Source: Chitinophaga oryzae (GTDB lineage: Bacteria; Bacteroidota; Bacteroidia; Chitinophagales; Chitinophagaceae). Taken from it: a stretch of 64,000 bases of DNA. The first letter of the stretch is position 1; the number at the start of each line of letters is the position of its first letter. The notes beneath the pieces were generated by a model. That model searched no databases and was not told the DNA's origin. It was given only the letters and a program-made list of their open reading frames with translations. The stretch covers positions 1,674,001 to 1,738,000 of the forward strand of contig NZ_CP051204.2 in assembly GCF_012516375.2 (NCBI RefSeq), written 5' to 3'. The position numbers and the translations under genes were made by a program. This document shows, in pieces, positions 8,820-57,675 of this stretch.

Positions 8820-8894
8820 TGGGAGCTACTGGATTCGAACCAGTGACCCTCTGCTTGTAAGGCAGATGCTCTGAACCAGCTGAGCTAAGCTCCC
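8820..8894 (-). tRNA. tRNA-Val (anticodon UAC), third in the array
   Basis: The reverse complement folds as a standard cloverleaf: 7-base acceptor stem GGGAGCT/AGCTCCC, D-arm with AGCTGGTTCAGAGC, anticodon loop CTTACAA (anticodon TAC) and T-arm with GGTTCGAATCC. The discriminator base is A and CCA is not encoded. The mature region is identical to the two copies at 8927 and 9038. Confidence 0.97.
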
Positions 8895-8926
8895 GGGAAA
8901 AAGATCTTTTAAATAACGATGAAGTG

Positions 8927-9001
8927 TGGGAGCTACTGGATTCGAACCAGTGACCCTCTGCTTGTAAGGCAGATGCTCTGAACCAGCTGAGCTAAGCTCC
9001 C
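8927..9001 (-). tRNA. tRNA-Val (anticodon UAC), second in the array
   Basis: Identical in the mature region to the neighbours, with the same acceptor stem, TAC anticodon and T-arm. The spacers on either side (about 32 and 36 bases) differ in sequence, which argues against a simple assembly stutter. Confidence 0.97.
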
Positions 9002-9037
9002 TAAAAAAGATCCTTTCAATAATTCAAAAAACGGAAG

Positions 9038-9112
9038 TGGGAGCTACTGGATTCGAACCAGTGACCCTCTGCTTGTAAGGCAGATGCTCTGAACCAGCTG
9101 AGCTAAGCTCCC
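9038..9112 (-). tRNA. tRNA-Val (anticodon UAC), first in the array
   Basis: Promoter-proximal copy of three tandem identical tRNA-Val genes. The cloverleaf is complete and CCA is not encoded. A canonical Bacteroidota promoter lies about 45 bases upstream (9155-9184, minus strand). Confidence 0.97.
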
Positions 9113-46781: not shown

Positions 46782-48839
46782 ATGAAAAAGACAAATTTAT
46801 TATTAGCCGGATTGTTTGCCTGTGGCATGGCCTCGGCACAGAAGATCCAACCGTATGGCGCGTTGCCGTCCAAAGCGCAGGTAGCCTGGAATGACATGGA
46901 ATATTACATGTTCATCCACTTCGGGCCCAACACGTTCACCAACAAAGAGTGGGGGCATGGGGATGAAGATCCGAAGGTATTTAATCCTACCCGCCTCGAT
47001 GCCCGTCAATGGGCCCGTACCGCCAGGCAGGCCGGTATGAAAGGCATCGTGATCACCGCCAAGCACCATGACGGTTTTTGTTTATGGCCTTCCAAATACA
47101 GCACCCATACTGTCCGGGAGAGCGCGTGGAAAAACGGCAAAGGCGATGTGCTGGCAGAACTTTCGGCCGCCTGTAAGGAATACGGCCTGAAGTTCGGCGT
47201 GTACCTGTCGCCCTGGGACCGTAACCATCCCGAGTATGGCACCGCCACGTACAACAAGGTGTTCGCCAATACGCTGGAAGAAGTGCTCACCAGCTACGGC
47301 CCTGTGTTTGAGCAGTGGTTCGATGGCGCTAATGGCGGCAATATCAAACAGCCTTATGACTGGGACCTGTTCCATAAAGTAGTATACAAACATCAGCCGA
47401 ACGCCGTTATTTTCAGCGACGTAGGACCTGGCTGCCGCTGGGTGGGCAATGAAAACGGTATCGCCGGCACCACCAACTGGAGCACGCTCAACGTGAAAGG
47501 GTTTACGCCCGGCGCAGGCGGCCCCCCTACGAAGTCGCTCAACGAAGGCAACGAGGACGGTGAACAGTGGATCCCGGCCGAATGTGACGTGTCTATCCGC
47601 CCGGGATGGTTCTACAGCCCCGATACAGACGACAAGGTGAAGTCGCTCAACACGCTGCTGGACATCTACTACGGCTCCGTAGGCCGCAATGGTAACCTGA
47701 TCCTGAACGTGCCTATTGACCGCGAAGGACTGATCCACCCGAACGATTCTACCCGCCTGATGGAGCTGCGCCGTACGCTGGATGCCACCTTCAAAAATAA
47801 CCTCGCTAAAAATGCGGTAGTAACGGCAACGGATACACGTAAGAATAACCCGGAGGTAAAGGTGTCTCATCTAACAGATGGTACCAACGCTACCTATTGG
47901 GCAACGCCGGACAACGTGACTGCCACCACCGTGAAGCTGACTTTCAAAAAGCCGGTTACCTTCAACCGGGTGGTGCTGCAGGAATATATAGCGCTCGGGC
48001 AGCGGGTGAAAGCTTTCAGCGTGGAAATACTGGACAAAGGCGTGAAAAAGGAAATAGCGCGGGAGACCACCGTCGGCCACAAGCGTATCCTGCGCCTGCC
48101 GGACTATACCACCACGGAAGTGTATATTAATATATTGGATGCCAAAGCGGCGCCCGTGATCAGCGAGATACAGCTGTTCGAAGCGCCCGGCATGCTGGCC
48201 ACGCCGGAGATCCACCGGGACAAAGAAGGGAAGGTGACCATCACCGCCGCTTCCGCCGACCCGGAAATACGTTACACCACCGACGGTACCGCGCCTGCGC
48301 TGAACTCGCCGTTGTACACACCGCAGACGGAGATCAGCCTGCCGCAGGGCGGCACGGTGAAAGCCAGGGCTTTCCTGCGCAAAACGAAGGCAGCCAGCCC
48401 GGAAGTGAAAGCCAGCTTCGACGTGGCGCCTGCCAAATGGCAGGTAGTGGCCCCGGCCACAGCGGAAGCCGCCAGGGCGATCGACGGCAATCCGGCCACC
48501 GTGTGGACATCTGACAAAAAAGAGACACAATACCCGCACCAGCTGGACGTAGACCTGGGTGAAACGCTGACGCTGAAAGGCTTTACCTACACGCCTACCA
48601 CCAATGAGCATATCGGCGGCGTGATTTACGGGTATGCCTTTTATACCAGCGCCGACGGTAAAAGCTGGGGGCAACCGGCCGCCACCGGCAGTTTCGCCAA
48701 CATCAAAAACAACCCGGTAGCGCAAACCATCACCTTTGCGCCGGTGAAAGCCAGGTTCATACGCCTGGTGGCCCTCACACCAGCCACCGAAAAGGATAAC
48801 AGGGCGAGTATCGCCGAGCTGGGGATTATCACCAAATAG
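46782..48839 (+). CDS. alpha-L-fucosidase, GH29, with carbohydrate-binding modules
   Basis: 685 residues with a signal peptide (to MASAQ). The GH29 barrel spans about 25-345: FIHFGPNTFTNKEWG, GIVITAKHHDGFCLWPS, LSPWDRNHPEYG and the nucleophile Asp in EQWFDGANGG. After it come an F5/8-type domain (about 350-470), a chitobiase-C-like segment (IRYTTDGTAPALNSPLYTP) and another F5/8-type domain to the end. It removes alpha-linked fucose outside the cytoplasm. The ATG at 46782 follows a spacer with decayed family 1 repeats (TCCGTAATCCGTAAT at 46756). Confidence 0.95.
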   Translation: MKKTNLLLAGLFACGMASAQKIQPYGALPSKAQVAWNDMEYYMFIHFGPNTFTNKEWGHGDEDPKVFNPTRLDARQWARTARQAGMKGIVITAKHHDGFCLWPSKYSTHTVRESAWKNGKGDVLAELSAACKEYGLKFGVYLSPWDRNHPEYGTATYNKVFANTLEEVLTSYGPVFEQWFDGANGGNIKQPYDWDLFHKVVYKHQPNAVIFSDVGPGCRWVGNENGIAGTTNWSTLNVKGFTPGAGGPPTKSLNEGNEDGEQWIPAECDVSIRPGWFYSPDTDDKVKSLNTLLDIYYGSVGRNGNLILNVPIDREGLIHPNDSTRLMELRRTLDATFKNNLAKNAVVTATDTRKNNPEVKVSHLTDGTNATYWATPDNVTATTVKLTFKKPVTFNRVVLQEYIALGQRVKAFSVEILDKGVKKEIARETTVGHKRILRLPDYTTTEVYINILDAKAAPVISEIQLFEAPGMLATPEIHRDKEGKVTITAASADPEIRYTTDGTAPALNSPLYTPQTEISLPQGGTVKARAFLRKTKAASPEVKASFDVAPAKWQVVAPATAEAARAIDGNPATVWTSDKKETQYPHQLDVDLGETLTLKGFTYTPTTNEHIGGVIYGYAFYTSADGKSWGQPAATGSFANIKNNPVAQTITFAPVKARFIRLVALTPATEKDNRASIAELGIITK

Positions 48840-48859
48840 TATATAAATAATTAAAGTAT

Positions 48860-48903
48860 AAGGCGGCTGGATCCCGAGGAGTTGGGTTCAGCCGCCTTTT
48901 TGT
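48860..48903 (+). terminator. rho-independent terminator after the fucosidase gene
   Basis: AAGGCGGCTG (48860-48869) pairs with CAGCCGCCTT (48889-48898), with a smaller inner CCC/GGG stem, followed by TTTTT. Confidence 0.88.
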
Positions 48904-48945
48904 TAACGGTTTGAAAAAAATCGGCATTCCCCAAAAAAAATTCGA

Positions 48946-48974
48946 TTGATTAAAAAGATATTATTATAACTTTG
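48946..48974 (+). promoter_or_regulatory. arginine operon promoter
   Basis: TTG at 48946-48948, 18 bases, TAACTTTG at 48967-48974: a full match to the Bacteroidota promoter form. It is the only good match in the 415-base gap before the GNAT gene and implies a leader RNA of about 275 bases. Confidence 0.75.
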
Positions 48975-49027
48975 CGGTTAATCTAAACTAAAGACAATAT
49001 TTATAACAATTTAACGCTGAACTGAAG

Positions 49028-49144
49028 TTGGAAAAAACCGCAACTCATACCAACATCTCTGCATATCATCCCGCTTTAAATAAAGGGGTATATTCTGTTG
49101 GGTTCAATGTCTTTAGATTCCTTTCCCGACGACCCAGGATTTGA
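49028..49144 (+). CDS. candidate arginine-rich leader peptide of the arg operon
   Basis: A 38-codon ORF beginning with TTG at 49028 and ending with TGA at 49142-49144, inside the operon leader. Four of its last nine residues are Arg, ending FRFLSRRPRI, written with AGA, CGA, CGA and AGG. Its start context AGTTGGAAAA is the same ten bases as at the TTG start of the first structural gene (49255). The stop codon touches the first of two stable hairpins. This is the layout of amino-acid-operon attenuation peptides: slow decoding of Arg codons would alter folding of the RNA ahead. Translation itself is not proven, and the TTG start is an inference. Confidence 0.5.
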   Translation: MEKTATHTNISAYHPALNKGVYSVGFNVFRFLSRRPRI

Positions 49145-49194
49145 TAGCGCTTGTCATACAACCGCTATCGCACCGGATATCCCCATGTCCGGTG
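49143..49194 (+). promoter_or_regulatory. tandem hairpins in the arg leader
   Basis: Hairpin 1: GATAGCG (49143-49149) with CGCTATC (49163-49169). Hairpin 2: CACCGGA (49171-49177) with TCCGGTG (49188-49194). They follow directly after the leader ORF stop. No T-run follows, so control at translation of the GNAT gene or by another mechanism is more likely than intrinsic termination. A weaker TGGGT/ACCCA pair encloses the Arg codons. Confidence 0.5.
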
Positions 49195-49254
49195 AATGTT
49201 CCGTAATGGAAGACTTCAATGTAGTTTATTGATTCACGATTTCAATTTTAAAAG

Positions 49255-50049
49255 TTGGAAAATCAGCATATCATCGTTAGGGTAGCCACACCTGACGATA
49301 TACACTATTCAAAAACCATCACTGATGAGATGGAGGCGTCTGCTAAAGCGCGTGGGACTGGAATTGCCAAACGTTCACCGGCCTATGTGGAGCTTAAAAT
49401 GCAGGAGGGCAAAGCTGTTATTGCAGTAACCGACAAAGGGGACTGGGTAGGCTTTTGTTATATAGAAGCATGGGGGCATGGCAAATTTGTGGCCAACTCA
49501 GGGCTGATCGTGAATCCTGCCTTCCGTGGGCATGGCGTGGCCAAGTCCATCAAAAAGAAAATCTTTGAACTGTCGAGAGAAACCTACCCCGAGTCCAAGA
49601 TATTTGGTCTGACTACCGGGCTGGCAGTGATGAAGATCAACTCAGAACTGGGTTATGAGCCCGTTACCTACTCCGAGCTGACAGACGACGAAGAGTTCTG
49701 GAAAGGCTGCCGCAGCTGTGTGAACTTCGATATCCTCACCAGCAAAGAGCGGAAGAACTGCCTGTGCACTGCTATGCTGTACGATCCCGCTGAGAAGCTG
49801 AAAGAGGCGGAAGAGCGTGCCATGGCCGACGCCAAAGCCAAACAGGAAGCGGCCGCCACTGCCCTGCAGCCTGTCAACCAGCTGTCTGTGACCGCTGCCG
49901 GCCAGATCCACCACGAGAAAAGGCGCCGGAGATTTAAAGGAAACATAAAGCTGTACGAGCGCTGGTTAAGATTTAAAAGATTTGTTTTGCTCAACAGCAA
50001 AAAAGAAGGCGGCGCTACCGGCACCAGGAAAAAATTCTTCCTGTTCTGA
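49255..50049 (+). CDS. GNAT-family N-acyltransferase at the head of the arg operon (probable N-acylglutamate synthase)
   Basis: 264 residues starting at TTG 49255: an in-frame stop lies two codons upstream and the next ATG would cut off the first GNAT strand (HIIVRVATPDD). The acetyl-CoA loop is VNPAFRGHGVAKSIKKKI. The middle has a Cys-rich patch (WKGCRSCVNF, KNCLCTAM) and the C-terminus is basic. No argA or argJ is in the operon, so this GNAT most likely makes N-acetyl- or N-succinyl-glutamate, the first step of the acylated pathway; the equivalent gene heads arg operons in other Bacteroidota. The exact acyl donor is unknown. Confidence 0.8.
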   Translation: MENQHIIVRVATPDDIHYSKTITDEMEASAKARGTGIAKRSPAYVELKMQEGKAVIAVTDKGDWVGFCYIEAWGHGKFVANSGLIVNPAFRGHGVAKSIKKKIFELSRETYPESKIFGLTTGLAVMKINSELGYEPVTYSELTDDEEFWKGCRSCVNFDILTSKERKNCLCTAMLYDPAEKLKEAEERAMADAKAKQEAAATALQPVNQLSVTAAGQIHHEKRRRRFKGNIKLYERWLRFKRFVLLNSKKEGGATGTRKKFFLF

Positions 50050-50106: not shown

Positions 50107-51297
50107 ATGAAAAAAGTAGTACTGGGATTTAGCGGAGGACTTGATACTTCGTATTGCGTTAAATATCTGACTGAAGAAAAAGGATATGAGGTGCATTCCG
50201 TAATCGTTAACACCGGCGGTTTTTCCGAAGAAGAACTGGTGGAAATTGAGAAACGCGCTTATAACCTGGGCGTTAAAAGTCACAAGACTGTTGACGCGGT
50301 CCGTTCCTACTACGACGGCGTTATTAAATACCTGATTTTTGGTAACGTACTGAAAAACAATACCTACCCGCTGAGCGTGAGTGCAGAACGTATGAGCCAG
50401 GCGCTGGCCATCGCCGAATATGTGAAAGAAGTGGGCGCTGACGCGGTAGCGCACGGCAGCACCGGCGCGGGTAACGACCAGGTGCGGTTTGACATGGTGT
50501 TTCATATCATGATCCCAGGTGTGGAGATCATCACCCCGATCCGTGACATGAAACTGAGCCGTGAAGCTGAAATTGACTATCTGCGTTCCAAAGGAGTGAA
50601 CATGAACTTCGAGAAAGCCATGTACTCCATCAATAAAGGCATGTGGGGCACTTCCGTAGGCGGTAAGGAAACACTGACCTCCAACGGTATGCTGCCGGAA
50701 GAAGCCTGGCCTACCCAGCTGACCAAAGAAGGAGAAGAACAGGTGAAACTGACTTTTGAGCAGGGCGAACTGGTTGGCGTGAACGACCTGAAATTCGCTC
50801 ACCCGTCTGAAGCGATCCAATACCTGCAAACCATAGCAGGGCCGTTCGCTATCGGCCGTGATATTCATGTAGGTGATACCATCATCGGTATCAAAGGCCG
50901 CGTAGGCTTTGAAGCCGCCGCTCCCATGGTGATCCTCAAAGCGCACCACGCACTGGAGAAACATGTGCTCACCAAATGGCAGCTGACCTGGAAAGACCAG
51001 CTGGCGCAGTTCTACGGCAACTGGATGCACGAAGGGCAGATCATGGACCCTGTGATGCGCGACATCGAGGCGTTCCTGCAACACACACAGGAAAATGTTT
51101 CCGGTGAAGTGTTCGTTACCCTGATGCCTTACCGCTTCCAGGTGACCGGTATCCAGTCACCCTACGACCTGATGAGCAGCAAATTCGGCAAGTACGGCGA
51201 AATGAACAGCGGCTGGTCCGGCGAAGATGTAAGAGGCTTCAGCAAAATTTTCGGTAACCAGACCATGATCTGGCATCAGGTAAAAAACTCTATCTAA
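50107..51297 (+). CDS. argG: argininosuccinate synthase
   Basis: 396 residues. ATP-pyrophosphatase loop VLGFSGGLDTSYCVKYL at the N-terminus, AHGSTGAGNDQVRFD for citrulline/aspartate binding. It joins citrulline and aspartate with ATP. Starts 57 bases after the GNAT gene and precedes argC by 15 bases. In the acylated pathway it acts after deacylation of N-acyl-citrulline by ArgE. Confidence 0.96.
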   Translation: MKKVVLGFSGGLDTSYCVKYLTEEKGYEVHSVIVNTGGFSEEELVEIEKRAYNLGVKSHKTVDAVRSYYDGVIKYLIFGNVLKNNTYPLSVSAERMSQALAIAEYVKEVGADAVAHGSTGAGNDQVRFDMVFHIMIPGVEIITPIRDMKLSREAEIDYLRSKGVNMNFEKAMYSINKGMWGTSVGGKETLTSNGMLPEEAWPTQLTKEGEEQVKLTFEQGELVGVNDLKFAHPSEAIQYLQTIAGPFAIGRDIHVGDTIIGIKGRVGFEAAAPMVILKAHHALEKHVLTKWQLTWKDQLAQFYGNWMHEGQIMDPVMRDIEAFLQHTQENVSGEVFVTLMPYRFQVTGIQSPYDLMSSKFGKYGEMNSGWSGEDVRGFSKIFGNQTMIWHQVKNSI

Positions 51298-51312
51298 ATC
51301 AGCATCGCAACC

Positions 51313-52296
51313 ATGGCAAATGATAAAAGGATAAAGGCAGGCATTGTTGGTGGGGCAGGCTATACCGGCGGAGAAATGATCCGGTTATTGCTGAACCATC
51401 CGGACGTATCCATTTCGTTTGTGCATAGCCGTAGTAATGCGGGCAATCCGTTGTACGCAGTACATGCCGACTTGCTGGGCGAGACAGAAAGGTCTTTCAC
51501 CGCCGAGCTGAGCAACGATATAGACGTAATGTTCCTCTGCCTCGGGCACGGGGAATCCAAAAAATTCCTGGAAGCAACAGACGTTGCTCCGCATGTGAAA
51601 ATAATAGACCTCAGTCAGGATTTTCGTTTAGGCGAAAGCGTTAAAGGACGGGAATTTGTGTACGGGCTGCCGGAACTGCAGCGGGAAGAAATCAAAAAGG
51701 CGAATAATATCGCCAATCCCGGTTGTTTTGCCACGGCCATACAGCTGGGCATCCTGCCGCTGGCCAAAGCCGGTCTGCTGAAAGAAGTACATACCACCGG
51801 CATCACCGGTTCCACCGGCGCCGGCCAGAGCCTGCAGGCCACTTCCCACTTTACCTGGAGGGCTAACAATATCTCCACTTATAAAGTGCTGAACCATCAG
51901 CACCTGAAAGAAATACGACGAAGCCTGGTACAGTTGCAACCCGGCTTCGCGGAAACGGTCAACTTTGTACCGGTGCGCGGTGATTTCCCCAGAGGCATCT
52001 GGGTCACCTCTTACCTGCAGAGCGACCTGACGCTGGAAGCAGCGGTGCAGTTGTACAAAGACTACTATGCCGGTCATCCTTTTACGCATGTCAGCGAAAA
52101 GCAGATCGACCTGAAGCAGGTAGTGAATACCAACAAGGTATTGCTGCAACTCGAGAAAGTGGGCGACAAACTGGTGATCCACTCCATCGAAGATAACCTG
52201 GTGAAAGGTGCTTCCGGTCAGGCTGTACAGAACATGAACCTTATGTGCGGACTGGATGAAACGGCCGGACTCAGACTGAAGTCCATCGTGTTCTAA
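51313..52296 (+). CDS. argC: N-acyl-gamma-glutamyl-phosphate reductase
   Basis: 327 residues. NADPH-binding GIVGGAGYTGGEMIRLL, catalytic Cys in IANPGCFATAIQLG, and the later His in TSHFTWRANN region with HQHLKEIRR. It reduces acylglutamyl phosphate to the semialdehyde. Sits between argG and argD with short gaps (15 and 33 bases), so cotranscribed. Confidence 0.95.
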   Translation: MANDKRIKAGIVGGAGYTGGEMIRLLLNHPDVSISFVHSRSNAGNPLYAVHADLLGETERSFTAELSNDIDVMFLCLGHGESKKFLEATDVAPHVKIIDLSQDFRLGESVKGREFVYGLPELQREEIKKANNIANPGCFATAIQLGILPLAKAGLLKEVHTTGITGSTGAGQSLQATSHFTWRANNISTYKVLNHQHLKEIRRSLVQLQPGFAETVNFVPVRGDFPRGIWVTSYLQSDLTLEAAVQLYKDYYAGHPFTHVSEKQIDLKQVVNTNKVLLQLEKVGDKLVIHSIEDNLVKGASGQAVQNMNLMCGLDETAGLRLKSIVF

Positions 52297-52329
52297 CCGT
52301 TTTTATCATTTTCAATTTTTTCCGACATC

Positions 52330-53454
52330 ATGAAACTTTTCGACGTTTATCCTGTAAACGATATCATTATAGACAAAGCCGCCGGTTCCAACGTATGGGA
52401 CGATAAAGGCACCGAATACCTGGACCTGTACGGCGGTCATGCTGTTATCTCCATCGGTCATACCCACCCGCACTATGTAAAAAGGCTGACCGACCAGCTG
52501 CATAAGGTAGGCTTCTATTCCAACTCCGTGAAGATGCCGCTGCAGGAAGAGCTGGCTGCCTTGCTGGGCAAAGTGTCCGGCAAAGCCGACTATCAGCTGT
52601 TCCTGTGCAACTCCGGCGCCGAAGCCAACGAGAACGCGCTGAAACTGGCGTCTTTCTATAACGGTAAAAAGAAAGTGATCGCTTTCCGCAAAGCATTCCA
52701 CGGACGGACTTCCCTCGCCGTGGCAGCCACCGACAACCCGAAGATCGTAGCGCCGGTGAACGAGACCGACAATGTAGTGTTCCTGCCATGGGAAGACGAA
52801 GCTGCACTGGAAGCCGCTTTTAAACAACATGAAGTATCTTCTGTTATCATTGAAGGTATCCAGGGCGTAGGCGGCATCAACGTAGCCAGCGAGTCTTTCC
52901 TGCGGAAGATCCGGAGCCTGTGCGATGCGCACAACGCCGTTTTTATCGCTGACTCCGTACAATGCGGTTATGGCAGAAGCGGTAAATTCTTCTCCCACGA
53001 TTTTGCCGGTGTGGATGCTGATATCTATTCCATGGCAAAAGGCATGGGTAACGGTTTCCCGATAGGCGGCATTATCGTCTCCCCGAAATTCAAAGCAGTA
53101 CATGGTATGCTGGGCACCACTTTTGGAGGTAACCACCTGGCCTGTGCAGCAGCCCTCGCGGTACTGGAAACGATCGAAAGCGAAAAGCTGATCGACAACG
53201 CCGCCAGCGTAGGCGCTTACCTGATGGAAGAGCTGCGGAAGTTCTCCCAGGTAAAAGAAGTAAGGGGCCGCGGTCTGATGATCGGTATCGAGATGCCGGA
53301 AGAACTGGCCCATGTAAGAAAGAACCTGCTGGGCGTTCATAAGATCTTTACCGGAGAAGCCAAGCCGAACGTGATTCGGTTGCTGCCTTCCCTGGCATTG
53401 ACCAAAGCCCATGCAGATCAGTTTTTGGAAGCGTTTAGAAAAGAAGTCAAATAG
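52330..53454 (+). CDS. argD: N-acylornithine aminotransferase
   Basis: 374 residues of class III PLP aminotransferase. PLP lysine in YSMAKGMGNGFPIGG; cofactor segments CNSGAEANENALKLA and the Asp of FIADSVQCGYGRSG. Converts acylglutamate semialdehyde to N-acylornithine with glutamate. The argF' gene begins 5 bases downstream. Confidence 0.95.
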   Translation: MKLFDVYPVNDIIIDKAAGSNVWDDKGTEYLDLYGGHAVISIGHTHPHYVKRLTDQLHKVGFYSNSVKMPLQEELAALLGKVSGKADYQLFLCNSGAEANENALKLASFYNGKKKVIAFRKAFHGRTSLAVAATDNPKIVAPVNETDNVVFLPWEDEAALEAAFKQHEVSSVIIEGIQGVGGINVASESFLRKIRSLCDAHNAVFIADSVQCGYGRSGKFFSHDFAGVDADIYSMAKGMGNGFPIGGIIVSPKFKAVHGMLGTTFGGNHLACAAALAVLETIESEKLIDNAASVGAYLMEELRKFSQVKEVRGRGLMIGIEMPEELAHVRKNLLGVHKIFTGEAKPNVIRLLPSLALTKAHADQFLEAFRKEVK

Positions 53455-53459
53455 CAATA

Positions 53460-54410
53460 ATGAAGCAATTTATTTCAACAGCAGATGTGCCCAGTGTCCC
53501 GCGGTTGGTGGACATTGCCATGAACTACAAGAAAGATCCTTTCATCGATAAGGAATTGGGAAAAAACAAAACGTTGGGAATGATCTTCCTGAATCCCAGT
53601 TTGCGAACACGCTTAAGTACACAGGTAGCTGCTAAAAACCTGGGTATGGAAGCGGTGGTGTTCAACATCGATAAAGAAGGATGGGCGCTGGAGATGAATG
53701 ACGGGGTAGTGATGAATGGTAATACCACCGAACACGTAAAAGAAGCTGCCGCCGTAATGGGACAGTACTTCGATATACTGGCTATCCGCACCTTCCCGGG
53801 GTTGAAAGATAAACAAGAAGACTATACGGAGAAATATATCAACCAGTTCATTAAATACGCAGGCGTACCGGTGGTGAGCCTGGAAAGCGCTACCCTGCAT
53901 CCTTTGCAGAGCCTGACCGATGTGATCACCATCAAGGAAAACTGGCAGCAGCCCCGCAAGCCGAAAGTGGTGATGACCTGGGCACCGCACGTAAAAGCGC
54001 TGCCGCAGGCCGTTCCCAACTCTTTCGCCCAGTGGATGAACGCATGGGGCGAAGTGGATTTTGTGATCGCTCATCCCGAAGGGTATGAGCTGGACGAAAA
54101 ATTCTCCGGCAACGCCCGTATCGAATACAACCAGGACAAAGCCCTGGAAGGCGCTGACTTCGTGTATGTGAAAAACTGGTCTTCCTACAGGGACTATGGT
54201 AAGATCACCTGCACTGACCCCAGCTGGATGGTGACCAACGATAAACTCAAACACACCAATACCGCCAAAGTAATGCACTGTCTGCCGGTGAGAAGAAATG
54301 TGGTGATTGCGGACGAAGTGCTGGACGGGCCTCAGTCCATCGTGATCCCTGAAGCGGGCAACCGTGTATGGGCTGCCCAGGCGGTATTAAGCGAAATATT
54401 GAAAGGATAA
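53460..54410 (+). CDS. argF': N-acylornithine transcarbamylase, probably succinyl-specific
   Basis: 316 residues of the AOTCase/SOTCase branch. Carbamoyl-phosphate motif NPSLRTRLSTQ, HPLQSLTD, and the family end HCLPVRRNVVIADEVLD. From memory, Glu92 in the Xanthomonas enzyme selects acetylornithine and Pro90 in the Bacteroides fragilis enzyme selects succinylornithine, with small residues also favouring succinyl. Here the equivalent position is Thr90 (NGNTTEH), so N-succinylornithine is the better guess. The operon thus makes N-acyl-citrulline before ArgE deacylates it. It overlaps nothing; argB starts 2 bases after its stop. Confidence 0.9.
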   Translation: MKQFISTADVPSVPRLVDIAMNYKKDPFIDKELGKNKTLGMIFLNPSLRTRLSTQVAAKNLGMEAVVFNIDKEGWALEMNDGVVMNGNTTEHVKEAAAVMGQYFDILAIRTFPGLKDKQEDYTEKYINQFIKYAGVPVVSLESATLHPLQSLTDVITIKENWQQPRKPKVVMTWAPHVKALPQAVPNSFAQWMNAWGEVDFVIAHPEGYELDEKFSGNARIEYNQDKALEGADFVYVKNWSSYRDYGKITCTDPSWMVTNDKLKHTNTAKVMHCLPVRRNVVIADEVLDGPQSIVIPEAGNRVWAAQAVLSEILKG

Positions 54411-54412
54411 TC

Positions 54413-55201
54413 ATGATTGACCTGTTTATTATCAAGGTAGGCGGAAACGTTATTGATAACCCGGTATTGCTGCAGGCTTTCCTGGAGAAGTTTGCCACCA
54501 TCCCCGGTAAAAAGATACTGATACACGGTGGCGGTAAAATCGCCACCCGTATCGGCGATCAGCTGGGCATCGAGTCTAAATATGTAGATGGCCGTCGTAT
54601 TACCGACGCCGCTACGATCGACGTGGTGACCATGGTATATGGCGGGCTGGTGAACAAGCAGCTGGTAGCTAAACTGCAGGCTGCGCAATGCAACGCCATC
54701 GGGCTTACCGGCGCAGACGCCAACATCATCCCGGCCACCAAAAGGCCGGTGAAAGAAATCGACTACGGTTTTGTAGGCGATGTAAAGCCGGAGATGGTGC
54801 AGACAACCGCGTTGAAAGCTTTGCTGGAAGCAGGACTCACGCCGGTATTTGCCCCGCTTACCCACGATGGTAACGGCCAGATGCTGAACACCAATGCAGA
54901 CACCATCGCCGCTTCGCTGGCTATAGCATTGTCTGCCAGCTACCAGGTGAGGCTGATCTACTGTTTCGAGAAAAAAGGCGTGCTGCATGATCCTAATGAT
55001 GACAATGCCGTCATCAACCTGATCAACAAAGATATCTACCAGCAGCTGCTGGCAGACAAGGTGCTGTCGGCCGGTATCCTGCCTAAACTGGAAAACGCCT
55101 TCTCCGCCATCAACAACGGCGTGAAGGAAGTGCTGATAGGACACGCCGACGATGTGCTGAGCAATACCACCGATACGGTAGCAGGCACTTTAATATGCTA
55201 G
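54413..55201 (+). CDS. argB: N-acylglutamate kinase
   Basis: About 262 residues from the ATG at 54413, 2 bases after argF'. Amino-acid-kinase fold with IIKVGGNVID, the phosphate loop IHGGGKIATRIGDQLG and NTNADTIAASLAIAL. It phosphorylates acylglutamate. The short N-terminus lacks the extra helix that forms arginine-sensitive hexamers in some species, so feedback inhibition by arginine may be weak; that is inference. Confidence 0.94.
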   Translation: MIDLFIIKVGGNVIDNPVLLQAFLEKFATIPGKKILIHGGGKIATRIGDQLGIESKYVDGRRITDAATIDVVTMVYGGLVNKQLVAKLQAAQCNAIGLTGADANIIPATKRPVKEIDYGFVGDVKPEMVQTTALKALLEAGLTPVFAPLTHDGNGQMLNTNADTIAASLAIALSASYQVRLIYCFEKKGVLHDPNDDNAVINLINKDIYQQLLADKVLSAGILPKLENAFSAINNGVKEVLIGHADDVLSNTTDTVAGTLIC

Positions 55202-55204
55202 TTT

Positions 55205-56269
55205 ATGTGGAACGAAAAATTATATGACGTGGCTGTGGCGCTGTTAAAACAGCTCATAGCCACGCCTTCTTTAAGCCGGGAGGAAGACGGTACCGCCCAG
55301 GTGATCAGCGACTTCCTGACCGCCATGGACATACCGCACGAACGGCATTTGAACAACGTGTGGGCGGTGAACAAACATTTTGATCCCGCCAAACGTAATA
55401 TCCTGTTGAATTCCCATCATGATACCGTGAAGCCTAATCCGCAATACACCCGCGACCCTTTTAGTCCGGATGTGGAAGACGGCAAGCTGTTCGGGCTGGG
55501 CAGTAACGACGCTGGCGGTTGCCTCGTAAGCCTGATCGCCACTTTCCTGCATTTCTATCACCGCACCGACCTGGAGTACAACTTTGTGCTGGCGGCTACT
55601 GCAGAAGAAGAGATCAGCGGCGCCAACGGTATTGAGAGTATTCTCGATAAACTGCCGGCCATCGACTTCGCCGTTGTGGGCGAGCCTACGCTGACGCAGC
55701 TGGCCATCGCCGAAAAAGGGTTGATGGTGCTGGACTGCACGGCTTACGGCAAGGCGGGCCATGCCGCACGGGAAGAAGGTGAGAATGCCTTGTATAAAGC
55801 GCTGCCGGACATTACCTGGTTCCGCGATTTCCGTTTCCCTAAAGAGTCGGAAACCTTGGGGCCGGTAAAAATGAGCGTGACGGTTATCAACACCTCCAAC
55901 AAGGCGCACAACGTAGTGCCGGCGGACTGCAGCTTCGTCGTGGACGTACGCGCTACCGACCAGTACACGCTGGAAGAGCTGCTGGAGATCATCCGTGCCA
56001 ATGTACAATGCGAGGTGAAGCCCCGTTCCATGCGGATGCGGCCTTCTTTTATTCCAATGGAGCACCCGTTTGTACAAGCGGGCATCACGCTGGGCAAGAC
56101 GTGGTACGGTTCACCCACCACATCCGACCAGGCGCTGATACCGGCGACCTCCGTGAAGATGGGGCCCGGCGATTCCGCCCGTTCACATACGGCAGATGAA
56201 TTCATCTACCTGGAAGAGATCAAAGCAGGTATCGATAGTTATATCCGGATATTGGAGATGATCCAGTAA
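55205..56269 (+). CDS. argE: M20-family deacylase (acyl-citrulline/ornithine deacylase)
   Basis: 354 residues of metallopeptidase family M20. Metal and catalytic residues: His-Asp in NSHHDTVKP, the Asp of GSNDAGGC, Glu-Glu in TAEEEISGANG, and the late His-rich segment. With argF' in the operon its natural substrate should be N-acyl-citrulline rather than N-acetylornithine. Starts 3 bases after argB. Confidence 0.9.
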   Translation: MWNEKLYDVAVALLKQLIATPSLSREEDGTAQVISDFLTAMDIPHERHLNNVWAVNKHFDPAKRNILLNSHHDTVKPNPQYTRDPFSPDVEDGKLFGLGSNDAGGCLVSLIATFLHFYHRTDLEYNFVLAATAEEEISGANGIESILDKLPAIDFAVVGEPTLTQLAIAEKGLMVLDCTAYGKAGHAAREEGENALYKALPDITWFRDFRFPKESETLGPVKMSVTVINTSNKAHNVVPADCSFVVDVRATDQYTLEELLEIIRANVQCEVKPRSMRMRPSFIPMEHPFVQAGITLGKTWYGSPTTSDQALIPATSVKMGPGDSARSHTADEFIYLEEIKAGIDSYIRILEMIQ

Positions 56270-56273
56270 TCCC

Positions 56274-56325
56274 GCGCACGCAAAGTTTTTAAGAGAGCAA
56301 AGAGCGCTAAGCAGTTGGCGTTTAC
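56274..56325. repeat. fragment related to the family 2 repeat
   Basis: Between argE and argH, CGCAAAGTTTTTAAGAG and GCGCTAAGCAG resemble parts of the family 2 element at 30640 but no hairpin partner is present, so it is a single arm or a decayed copy. Confidence 0.55.
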
Positions 56326-56340
56326 TATAAAAAATTTTTT

Positions 56341-57675
56341 ATGAAACTGTGGCAAAAAGATAAGGCATCGCTGGATGCCGTAGAGAAATTCACGGTGGGC
56401 AAAGACCGCGAAATGGATGCCTTCCTGGCGCCGTTCGATGTGCTGGGCTCTATGGCGCACATCACTATGCTGCAAAGCATCGGGCTGCTGGAAGCCGGTG
56501 AGCTGACTATCCTGAAGCAGGAGCTGAAGAAGATCTACCAGGATATCCAGGATGGTAATTTTGTGCTGGAAGAAGGCGTGGAGGATATTCACTCACAGGT
56601 GGAGCTGCTGCTGACCCGTCGCCTGGGTGAAGTAGGTAAAAAGATACACAGCGGCCGTTCCCGCAACGACCAGGTGCTGGTAGACCTGAAGCTGTTCCTC
56701 CGTCACGAGTTGCAGATGATGGTGTCTTCCGTGAAAGCGCTGTTCGACCTGTTACAACAGAAAAGCGAAGCATACAAAGATCACCTGATCCCTGGGTATA
56801 CGCACCTGCAGATCGCCATGCCTTCTTCTTTCGGATTGTGGTTTGGCGCTTATGCGGAGAGCCTCGTCGATGATCTCACCATGCTGCAGGGGGCTTATAA
56901 AGTGGTGAACAAAAATCCGCTCGGCTCCGCTGCCGGTTATGGTTCTTCGTTCCCCCTGGACCGTGAGATGACCACTCGTTTGCTTGGTTTCGACACGCTT
57001 AACTATAACGTGGTATATGCCCAGATGGGGCGCGGTAAAACTGAAAAGATCGTGTCTTTCGCGCTGGCCGGCATCGCTGCTACCATCGCCAAAATGGCCA
57101 TGGACGCGTGCCTGTTCATGAACCAGAATTTCGGCTTTATCAGCTTCCCGGATGAACTGACCACCGGTTCCAGCATCATGCCGCACAAGAAGAACCCGGA
57201 CGTATGGGAATTGATCCGCTCTCATGGCAATAAGTTGCAGGCGCTGCCCAACGAAATCGCCATGATGATCACCAACCTGCCTTCCGGTTACCACCGCGAT
57301 CTGCAATTGCTGAAAGAGAACCTGTTCCCCGCTTTCCAGACGCTGCGCGACTGCATCGATATGAGTCGCCTTATGCTGGAGAATATCCGCATCAAAGAAA
57401 ATATCCTCGATGATGACAAGTACCAGTACCTGTTCAGCGTGGAAGTGGTGAACAACCTGGTGCTGCAAGGCACGCCTTTCCGCGAGGCTTACAAGCAGGT
57501 AGGCATGGACATTGAGCATGGTACTTTCTCGCCGTCCAGGGAGGTGAAACACACCCATGCCGGCAGCATCGGTAACCTGTGCACCGCGCAGATAGCCGCG
57601 CAGATGGACGCGGTGATCAAAGGGTTTCCGTTTGAGGCGGTGGAGAAAGCGATAAGGGAATTGCTGGAGAAGTAA
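56341..57675 (+). CDS. argH: argininosuccinate lyase
   Basis: 444 residues of the fumarase/aspartase superfamily. Motifs: SGRSRNDQVLVDLKLFLR, GYTHLQIAMP with the catalytic His, and the signature GSSIMPHKKNPDVWE with the catalytic Ser. It splits argininosuccinate into arginine and fumarate, the last step. Separated from argE by 71 bases that hold a fragment of repeat; a terminator follows. Confidence 0.96.
   Translation: MKLWQKDKASLDAVEKFTVGKDREMDAFLAPFDVLGSMAHITMLQSIGLLEAGELTILKQELKKIYQDIQDGNFVLEEGVEDIHSQVELLLTRRLGEVGKKIHSGRSRNDQVLVDLKLFLRHELQMMVSSVKALFDLLQQKSEAYKDHLIPGYTHLQIAMPSSFGLWFGAYAESLVDDLTMLQGAYKVVNKNPLGSAAGYGSSFPLDREMTTRLLGFDTLNYNVVYAQMGRGKTEKIVSFALAGIAATIAKMAMDACLFMNQNFGFISFPDELTTGSSIMPHKKNPDVWELIRSHGNKLQALPNEIAMMITNLPSGYHRDLQLLKENLFPAFQTLRDCIDMSRLMLENIRIKENILDDDKYQYLFSVEVVNNLVLQGTPFREAYKQVGMDIEHGTFSPSREVKHTHAGSIGNLCTAQIAAQMDAVIKGFPFEAVEKAIRELLEK

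Follow-up and report, generated by a model that had tools for sequence, protein, structure and literature searches.

How does a bacterium that has no arginine repressor adjust its arginine biosynthesis genes to the supply of arginine? The question is raised by an arginine operon of Chitinophaga oryzae that lies in the window, i.e., the whole 64,000-nucleotide stretch of contig NZ_CP051204.2 (positions 1,674,001 to 1,738,000) analyzed here. A preliminary description of this stretch had proposed that an Arg-codon leader controls the operon through the ribosome, and the comparison with related loci, which is one of sequences, strongly supports such a role. It had also noted that no argR is in the window. 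The absence extends to the whole host genome (8.36 Mb), in which the ArgR profile PF01316 gave no match; control matches were obtained in 9 of 14 named genomes. According to the ORF list and NCBIfam, the operon has the order GNAT, argG, argC, argD, argF', argB, argE, argH, and its 3' end is at 57675.

49255..50049, + strand: GNAT-family acetyltransferase gene, the first gene of the operon (ORF; Pfam PF00583, E 2.5e-5)
50107..57675, + strand: argG, argC, argD, argF', argB, argE, and argH (ORFs, NCBIfam)

The best NCBIfam matches of argD and argE are under the curated cut-offs, and the remaining genes from argG to argH reach one. ArgF' is of the N-acetylornithine carbamoyltransferase type (NCBIfam). 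The position of the GNAT gene in the operon suggests that its product supplies N-acetylglutamate. Among the best 80 of 208 records, the closest named GNAT loci are those of Chitinophaga eiseniae, C. varians, and C. fulva, with an identity of 96-98%. The reading frames of argF' and argB overlap as listed (54368-54410), and an argB start inside the listed frame, at 54413, is possible.

The region upstream of the GNAT gene contains the following elements.

48946..48974, + strand: putative Bacteroidota-type promoter found by reading, with TTG (-33; 48946-48948) and TAACTTTG (-7, TAnnTTTG; 48967-48974)
49007..49012, + strand: CAATTT element upstream of the leader start, at most 40 nt upstream in 46/46 Chitinophaga-type loci
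49028..49144, + strand: leader ORF, for which we propose the name argL; 38 codons, TTG start, TGA stop, C-terminus FRFLSRRPRI
49127..49132, + strand: tandem CGA-CGA codons, the proposed sensing site, marked by near-fixation of the codon
49136..49138, + strand: codon of the penultimate Arg (AGG here), an Arg in 46/46 Chitinophaga-type loci and in 79/112 leaders

The promoter was called with the Bacteroidota promoter consensus. Of 112 loci, 35 have TAnnTTTG in the 110 nt that precede the leader ORF, compared with 7.7 expected from mononucleotide shuffles. If transcription starts where this candidate promoter places it, the leader RNA would be approximately 275 nt long. The leader ORF extends from TTG 49028 to TGA 49142-49144, encodes MEKTATHTNISAYHPALNKGVYSVGFNVFRFLSRRPRI, and stops 110 nt upstream of the first gene of the operon. 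Four Arg (AGA, CGA, CGA, AGG) lie within its final nine residues. The ORF, first pointed out in the preliminary description, recurs in all 46 Chitinophaga-type loci, which include one titled [Flexibacter] and some MAGs. In each of them it is 37 or 38 codons long, begins with TTG, and ends in RRPRI. Close relatives, in which loss of the ORF or of its Arg codons had been named as the sign against the proposal, conserve both.

We compared 26 distinct 38-codon leader sequences for single-base codon differences. The nonsynonymous-to-synonymous ratio is 0.68 in the ORF's own frame versus 4.13 and 10.17 in the other frames. In the same set, the own frame is open in 100% of the sequences, the second frame in 35%, and the third in none. 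By this comparison, the leader ORF evolves as a protein-coding sequence, and the substitution pattern suggests that it is translated. The penultimate Arg is kept in all 46 loci through four codons (CGT, AGA, AGG, and CGC). Gly -19, His -25, Leu -7, and Pro -3 are likewise fixed in 46/46, each with two to four codons, and the Chitinophaga peptide is conserved beyond its Arg residues over the whole length. The expectation that an alignment of relatives would show conserved Arg codons thus held, but that of freely variable other codons did not. Two N-terminal columns hold His in 24 and 23, respectively, of 25 non-redundant RRPRI-ending leaders (by eye); these leaders, 7 of them from Chitinophaga, were chosen solely by the RRPRI end, so that their end columns are conserved by construction. 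A second leader class (HTKQxAFHAPITSGVYAVG...) aligns with the RRPRI class; its 14 members were chosen by the FH motif with redundancy retained, and the motif columns are conserved by construction.

The leader is widespread in Bacteroidota. GNAT upstream regions were taken from the best 80 of 208 named records and from further genomes. Seven second GNAT copies (L189-L195) were excluded from the enrichment count, which used 208 of 215 loci and, after a redundancy filter, 142. Most GNAT upstream regions carry a short ORF with an Arg-rich tail whose stop is located 80-140 nt before the gene. In the 142 non-redundant loci, the last 14 codons contain a mean of 3.14 Arg, compared with 0.63 in dinucleotide shuffles (z 32.7), and at least three Arg are found in 77% of the loci and 4.3% of the shuffles. 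Arg is the outlier among the 20 residues, followed by Pro (z 12.7), Phe (7.3), Val (5.9), and Ala (5.3), and Lys is depleted. Because all 46 Chitinophaga-type loci carry the ORF and the shuffle test covers 142 loci, chance can be excluded as the explanation.

A leader was assigned by rule in 112 of the 142 loci, as the ORF with the most Arg in a fixed distance window and at least three Arg in 14 codons, a rule that builds in some of the excess. Kinship is partly removed in this set, and some of the 112 (e.g., L120, L179, L180, and L182) may be chance ORFs. The median distance from leader stop to gene start is 106.5 nt (5-95% range, 84-132). Of the 112 leaders, 79 have Arg as the penultimate residue and 67 have TGA as the stop codon. 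The C-terminal types in the family of Chitinophaga are YLxRRPRI, PRPRRGC, and SRPRRRPxx. Leader tails of APLRRFRNSFRA and APSRRNRFTYRV occur in Cyclobacteriaceae genera, among them Cecembia, Indibacter, and Algoriphagus, and xRRRP and IPRRR tails occur in two further families (f5 and f24). The C-terminal sequences therefore differ across the phylum, and the common part is mainly Arg and Pro.

Thirty loci have no leader by the rule. Eleven of them have a short ORF with two Arg and a stop 83-123 nt before the gene, and six of these (L075, L076, L130, L137, L142, and L144) look leader-like by eye. L202 resembles a leader that lost its Arg, and ten loci have an open stretch that ends close before GNAT. 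The misses also include loci of one genus, g108 of f5 (L131, L140, and L152), with neither a leader candidate nor an ArgR match.

Several observations were made beside the main set. In family f5, L157, L158, and L159 have two tandem Arg-rich ORFs that end at approximately -225 (RRR) and -85 (RRP or RP), and L151 and L160 have only the upstream ORF of this tandem at the three-Arg threshold. For the second GNAT copies L189-L195, no short upstream ORF with at least three Arg is listed; L189 (G000:C1:64406-64939, minus strand), a second GNAT homolog with 60% identity, is listed without an Arg-rich leader ORF in front of it. L047, titled Beijerinckiaceae, has a Chitinophaga-like GNAT and leader and is probably a mis-binned contig. 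In G433, G402, G215, G355, and G391, the GNAT homolog lies within long open frames of 588-1082 residues, possibly enzyme fusions.

The conservation of the peptide beyond Arg within the genus would also suit a small functional protein, and a neutral upstream ORF is the other way in which the ORF could have no link to arginine. Both are very improbable, since the position of the ORF is kept relative to the arg operon and Arg is enriched in the unrelated sequences of other clades. Moreover, the leader peptides tried had no match in NCBIfam (five peptides) or Pfam (three peptides). The C-terminal pattern has one exact site in the genome and seven with 2 mismatches, i.e., 8 sites compared with 19 for a reversed control.

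The distribution of ArgR bears on what the leader may replace. The preliminary description had treated ArgR-type repressors as the usual case in Bacteroidota, a view that does not fit our sample, in which only 139 of 395 genomes have an ArgR match. GNAT was found in 158 genomes. Both were present in seven (by eye), two of which have weak ArgR matches (G222 and G244). From the 139 ArgR genomes, 27 were selected, about one per genus. An argG match was obtained in 26, and in all 26 argR is upstream of argG on the same strand. The distance from the argR HMM match to argG is 252-392 nt in 19 genomes and 835-1718 nt in 7, and GNAT lies between the two genes in each of the four inspected among these seven. 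Of 25 distinct operons, 3 have an ORF with three or more Arg in front of the argR-like gene at the distance typical of a leader. The argR-like gene is here the nearest ORF of fitting length, with a first-ATG start that may lie too far upstream in some; the ORF in L240 does not resemble ArgR, and no such ORF was obtained in two of the 31 loci. The upstream end of the cluster thus carries either argR or the Arg leader, suggesting that these genes are preceded by one or the other of two unlike regulators. Some of the loci that have no leader by the rule come from genomes with no ArgR match, a point against the leader as the arginine sensor. The best reading of this distribution is that the leader is a putative ribosome-mediated arginine sensor standing in for ArgR.

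Codon choice within the leader points to the process that may be sensed. The two CGA positions are CGA in 46/46 and 45/46 Chitinophaga-type loci (the other is AGA), and both are CGA in 19/19 RRPRI leaders outside the Chitinophaga-type loci. The codon of the later, penultimate Arg varies freely in the RRPRI class. In 68 loci, CGA accounts for 93 of 251 Arg codons in the leaders and for 55 of 780 in the GNAT genes (p 1e-27, with kinship uncorrected), and among the Arg codons of nine genes in the window it is the one used least (4/129). The anticodons of the tRNA-Arg genes are ACG (three genes), CCG, CCT, and TCT, with no TCG, among the 49 of 67 tRNA matches examined; the remainder are six matches with scores similar to that of the Lys gene L262 and twelve of greater length (82-91 nt), and four yielded no gene or no clear anticodon. 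Among the tRNA-Arg genes found in these 49 matches, only those with the ACG anticodon could read CGA. The reading of CGA by an ACG tRNA occurs through inosine and is a weak pairing. The hairpin at the leader stop, described below, does not reach the CGA codons, and their fixation therefore looks like selection on decoding.

These features fit an arrest peptide of the TnaC, SpeFL, or fungal arginine attenuator type less well. In that case, the nascent chain together with free arginine or a pathway intermediate, not tRNA charging, would halt the ribosome near the stop. We consider this rather unlikely as the whole explanation: the CGA codon itself is nearly fixed at two positions, which points to decoding, and the C-terminal sequences differ over the phylum, with mainly Arg and Pro in common. 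The residues fixed through two to four codons each in Chitinophaga (Gly -19, His -25, Leu -7, and Pro -3), the N-terminal His columns of the RRPRI leaders, and the frequency of TGA stops are the observations in its favor. Conservation beyond Arg also counts against a pure codon sensor, because it is not expected from codon sensing. A contribution of the nascent chain is therefore a serious rival to codon sensing, or its partner.

The RNA downstream of the CGA codons is predicted to contain the following structures.

49142..49170, + strand: hairpin 1, the 5' arm of which overlaps the leader stop codon (fold; pairing counts)
49171..49194, + strand: hairpin 2, variable in sequence (folds of Chitinophaga leaders)
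49199..49211, + strand: hairpin 3, short (folds of Chitinophaga leaders)
49240..49260, + strand: hairpin around the TTG start of GNAT (folds of Chitinophaga start segments)

A TGA touching the first of two adjacent hairpins had been reported; hairpin 1 indeed starts at the stop, and hairpin 2 follows it. The earlier inventory was right in these two and lacked hairpin 3. In Chitinophaga, hairpin 1 is paired in 99.6% of cells over 35 distinct rows, and four of its seven pairs are invariant. One pair shows double changes, in four cells; 134 of 500 shuffles likewise have one such pair, and the covariation score was reached by 0 of 500. Of the 46 loci, 36 entered this count; the others are L035, L037, L038, and L045, whose stem is displaced or broken, and L002, L003, L004, L009, L025, and L027, which are closely related to other loci. 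Averaged over the phylum, the 5' arm lies at approximately -8 to +7 of the leader stop and the 3' arm at approximately +20 to +39. Of the pairings compared with shuffles over the phylum, this stop-overlapping hairpin alone is enriched, with a mean z of -0.70 (SE 0.09) and values below -2 in 20.5%. Nine other pairings did not differ from shuffles (mean z -0.12 to +0.16), including those of the Arg codons with downstream RNA, the hairpin arm with downstream RNA, and the start region with the ORF (mean z -0.03); these are set-wide means, from which single clades could differ. Mutually exclusive antiterminator and terminator hairpins were rejected as a general mode, since the pairing tests are near z 0. 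Such null results count against the sensor reading, because they are unusual for attenuators. Several of the leaders L052, L055, L063, L066, L073, and L076 have a hairpin past the leader stop with a recurring CCTACGTGG-like apex (by eye). Rfam gave no match in the leader and, in the window, only three tRNAs at gathering scores, so that no T-box or catalogued riboswitch was found. In the window, three tandem tRNA-Val(TAC) genes with equal scores are located at 8820-9112 on the minus strand.

The hairpin at the GNAT start introduces a further possibility, a switch at translation initiation, in which leader ribosomes open the start hairpin or reinitiate from the leader stop across the folded hairpins. 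The 20 distinct start segments of Chitinophaga have folding energies between -6.6 and -4.4 kcal/mol (mean dG -5.4; mean z -1.38), and the hairpin is absent from some whole-leader folds. In addition, the ten bases AGTTGGAAAA that the preliminary description had noticed at both starts are not there by chance. CAATTT-N(2-20)-AGTTGGAAAA has exactly two sites in the 8.36 Mb genome, 49007-49035 at the leader start and 49243-49262 at the GNAT start, and this module is common to both starts and found nowhere else. Translation initiation in Bacteroidota leans little on Shine-Dalgarno pairing. With two genomic sites only, CAATTT plus AGTTGGAAAA was ruled out as a general initiation element.

Even so, a switch at initiation is improbable. 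On average, the start hairpin has no counterpart in 105 other leaders (mean z 0.05), and the GNAT start has a predicted pairing of 0.70 in all three modeled states: no leader ribosome, a ribosome on the CGA codons, and a ribosome at the stop. The start region and the ORF do not pair above shuffles, as given above, and the distance from stop to start appears long for reinitiation. The suggestion that control could act at translation initiation of the first gene is accordingly not upheld as the general output. Two specific forms were also rejected: start sequestration released by leader stalling (ermC type), because the modeled ribosome positions leave the pairing unchanged, and a distant pairing between the leader CAATTT and the GNAT start, suggested by RNAalifold for the whole Chitinophaga leader, because the local hairpin is stronger (mean duplex -6.36 vs -3.88).

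Intrinsic termination was considered next to these folds. The T-run reported as missing is missing: a scan of 48780-49320 for loops of 3-8 found no terminator-like site, a loop limit that misses a long-looped stem at approximately 48860-48901. That stem, followed by a T-run (by eye), comes after the end of the preceding gene at 48839, and the organism thus seems to use such terminators. Terminator-like sites are present in 9 of 112 leaders, compared with 2.7 expected; they are rare yet above expectation, suggesting that some clades may use intrinsic termination. As a general mode it was rejected, given the 9/112 leaders and the lack of a site between leader and GNAT.

We propose the following pathway for the control of the operon. 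The short leader peptide is probably one whose translation gauges arginine supply, as far as can be judged from sequence comparison. When charged tRNA-Arg is scarce, ribosomes would halt at CGA-CGA and the adjoining Arg codons, and the operon would be expressed. When arginine is ample, ribosomes would complete the leader and leave at the stop, and the stop hairpin would fold. The approximately 100 nt of untranslated, G-poor RNA before the first gene would then let expression be shut off. Judged by the size of its footprint, a ribosome that waits at the first CGA would leave hairpin 1 free. Once the penultimate Arg codon occupies the A site, both the stop codon and the 5' arm of this hairpin would be covered by the waiting ribosome. 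The off-step, the least certain part of the mechanism, would most likely be Rho-dependent premature termination, because most leaders have no terminator or alternative fold and sequestration is unsupported as a general mode. Rho is encoded in the host genome. From 40 nt past the stop to the gene, C makes up 23% and G 12.7%, and C is above G in 89% of leaders. The excess of C over G does not differ significantly from that of 37 leaderless upstream regions (p 0.059), and the case for Rho therefore rests on elimination.

A more specific version of this pathway joins the two kinds of evidence, and we offer it tentatively, as a possibility. The slow CGA-CGA pair, read only by an inosine-bearing tRNA-Arg, and the conserved nascent chain would together pause the ribosome before the stop, with Rho as the output, across the phylum and in the stead of ArgR. 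In one family, such a leader may exist as two tandem leaders. If this version is true, a bacterial arginine leader would unite the sensing of codon starvation with the behavior of an arrest peptide. Because many natural leaders differ in sequence and share the same apparent task, the question of codon versus nascent chain is testable with them.

The trpL, hisL, and leuL leaders represent classical amino-acid attenuation. The leader described here is likewise a short ORF, rich in cognate codons, directly before the cognate biosynthesis operon. In trp-like attenuators, the cognate codons are further from the stop and two hairpins compete. In contrast, most leaders here have no intrinsic terminator or competing hairpin, the Arg codons reach the penultimate codon, and the peptide is conserved in one family. 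Our data point to leader control without intrinsic terminators in Bacteroidota.

In the literature searched, with subscription papers mostly outside it, we found no description of an arginine leader of Bacteroidota. The nearest case in the same phylum is Flavobacterium psychrophilum, for which there are clues to leader-peptide attenuation before amino-acid biosynthesis operons, with arginine unnamed there (PMC9723704); the main text of that paper has no argG and mentions arginine once in another context, and an overlap through its supplement is possible. Leader distances are discussed in PMC4833913. In Staphylococcus aureus, the leader peptide rbfL has rare Arg codons and senses arginine limitation by ribosome pausing (PMC13009471). 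The rbfL ORF overlaps the site at which a biofilm regulator binds, and its effect under limitation is repression, whereas derepression would be expected of the Chitinophaga leader. TnaC, SpeFL, and the fungal arginine attenuator peptide are compared in PMC8429421. SpeFL and TnaC are likewise short nascent peptides before a related metabolic gene or operon, with residues conserved along the chain. The present leaders, however, differ in sequence from clade to clade and are enriched in cognate codons, and any ligand-dependent arrest would be hypothetical. In other Bacteroidota, the regulator ArgR likewise has its gene ahead of the other genes of this cluster. The leader differs in that it does without a dedicated regulatory protein, and the host genome is without ArgR. 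The comparison suggests how many Bacteroidota that lack ArgR may regulate arginine synthesis.
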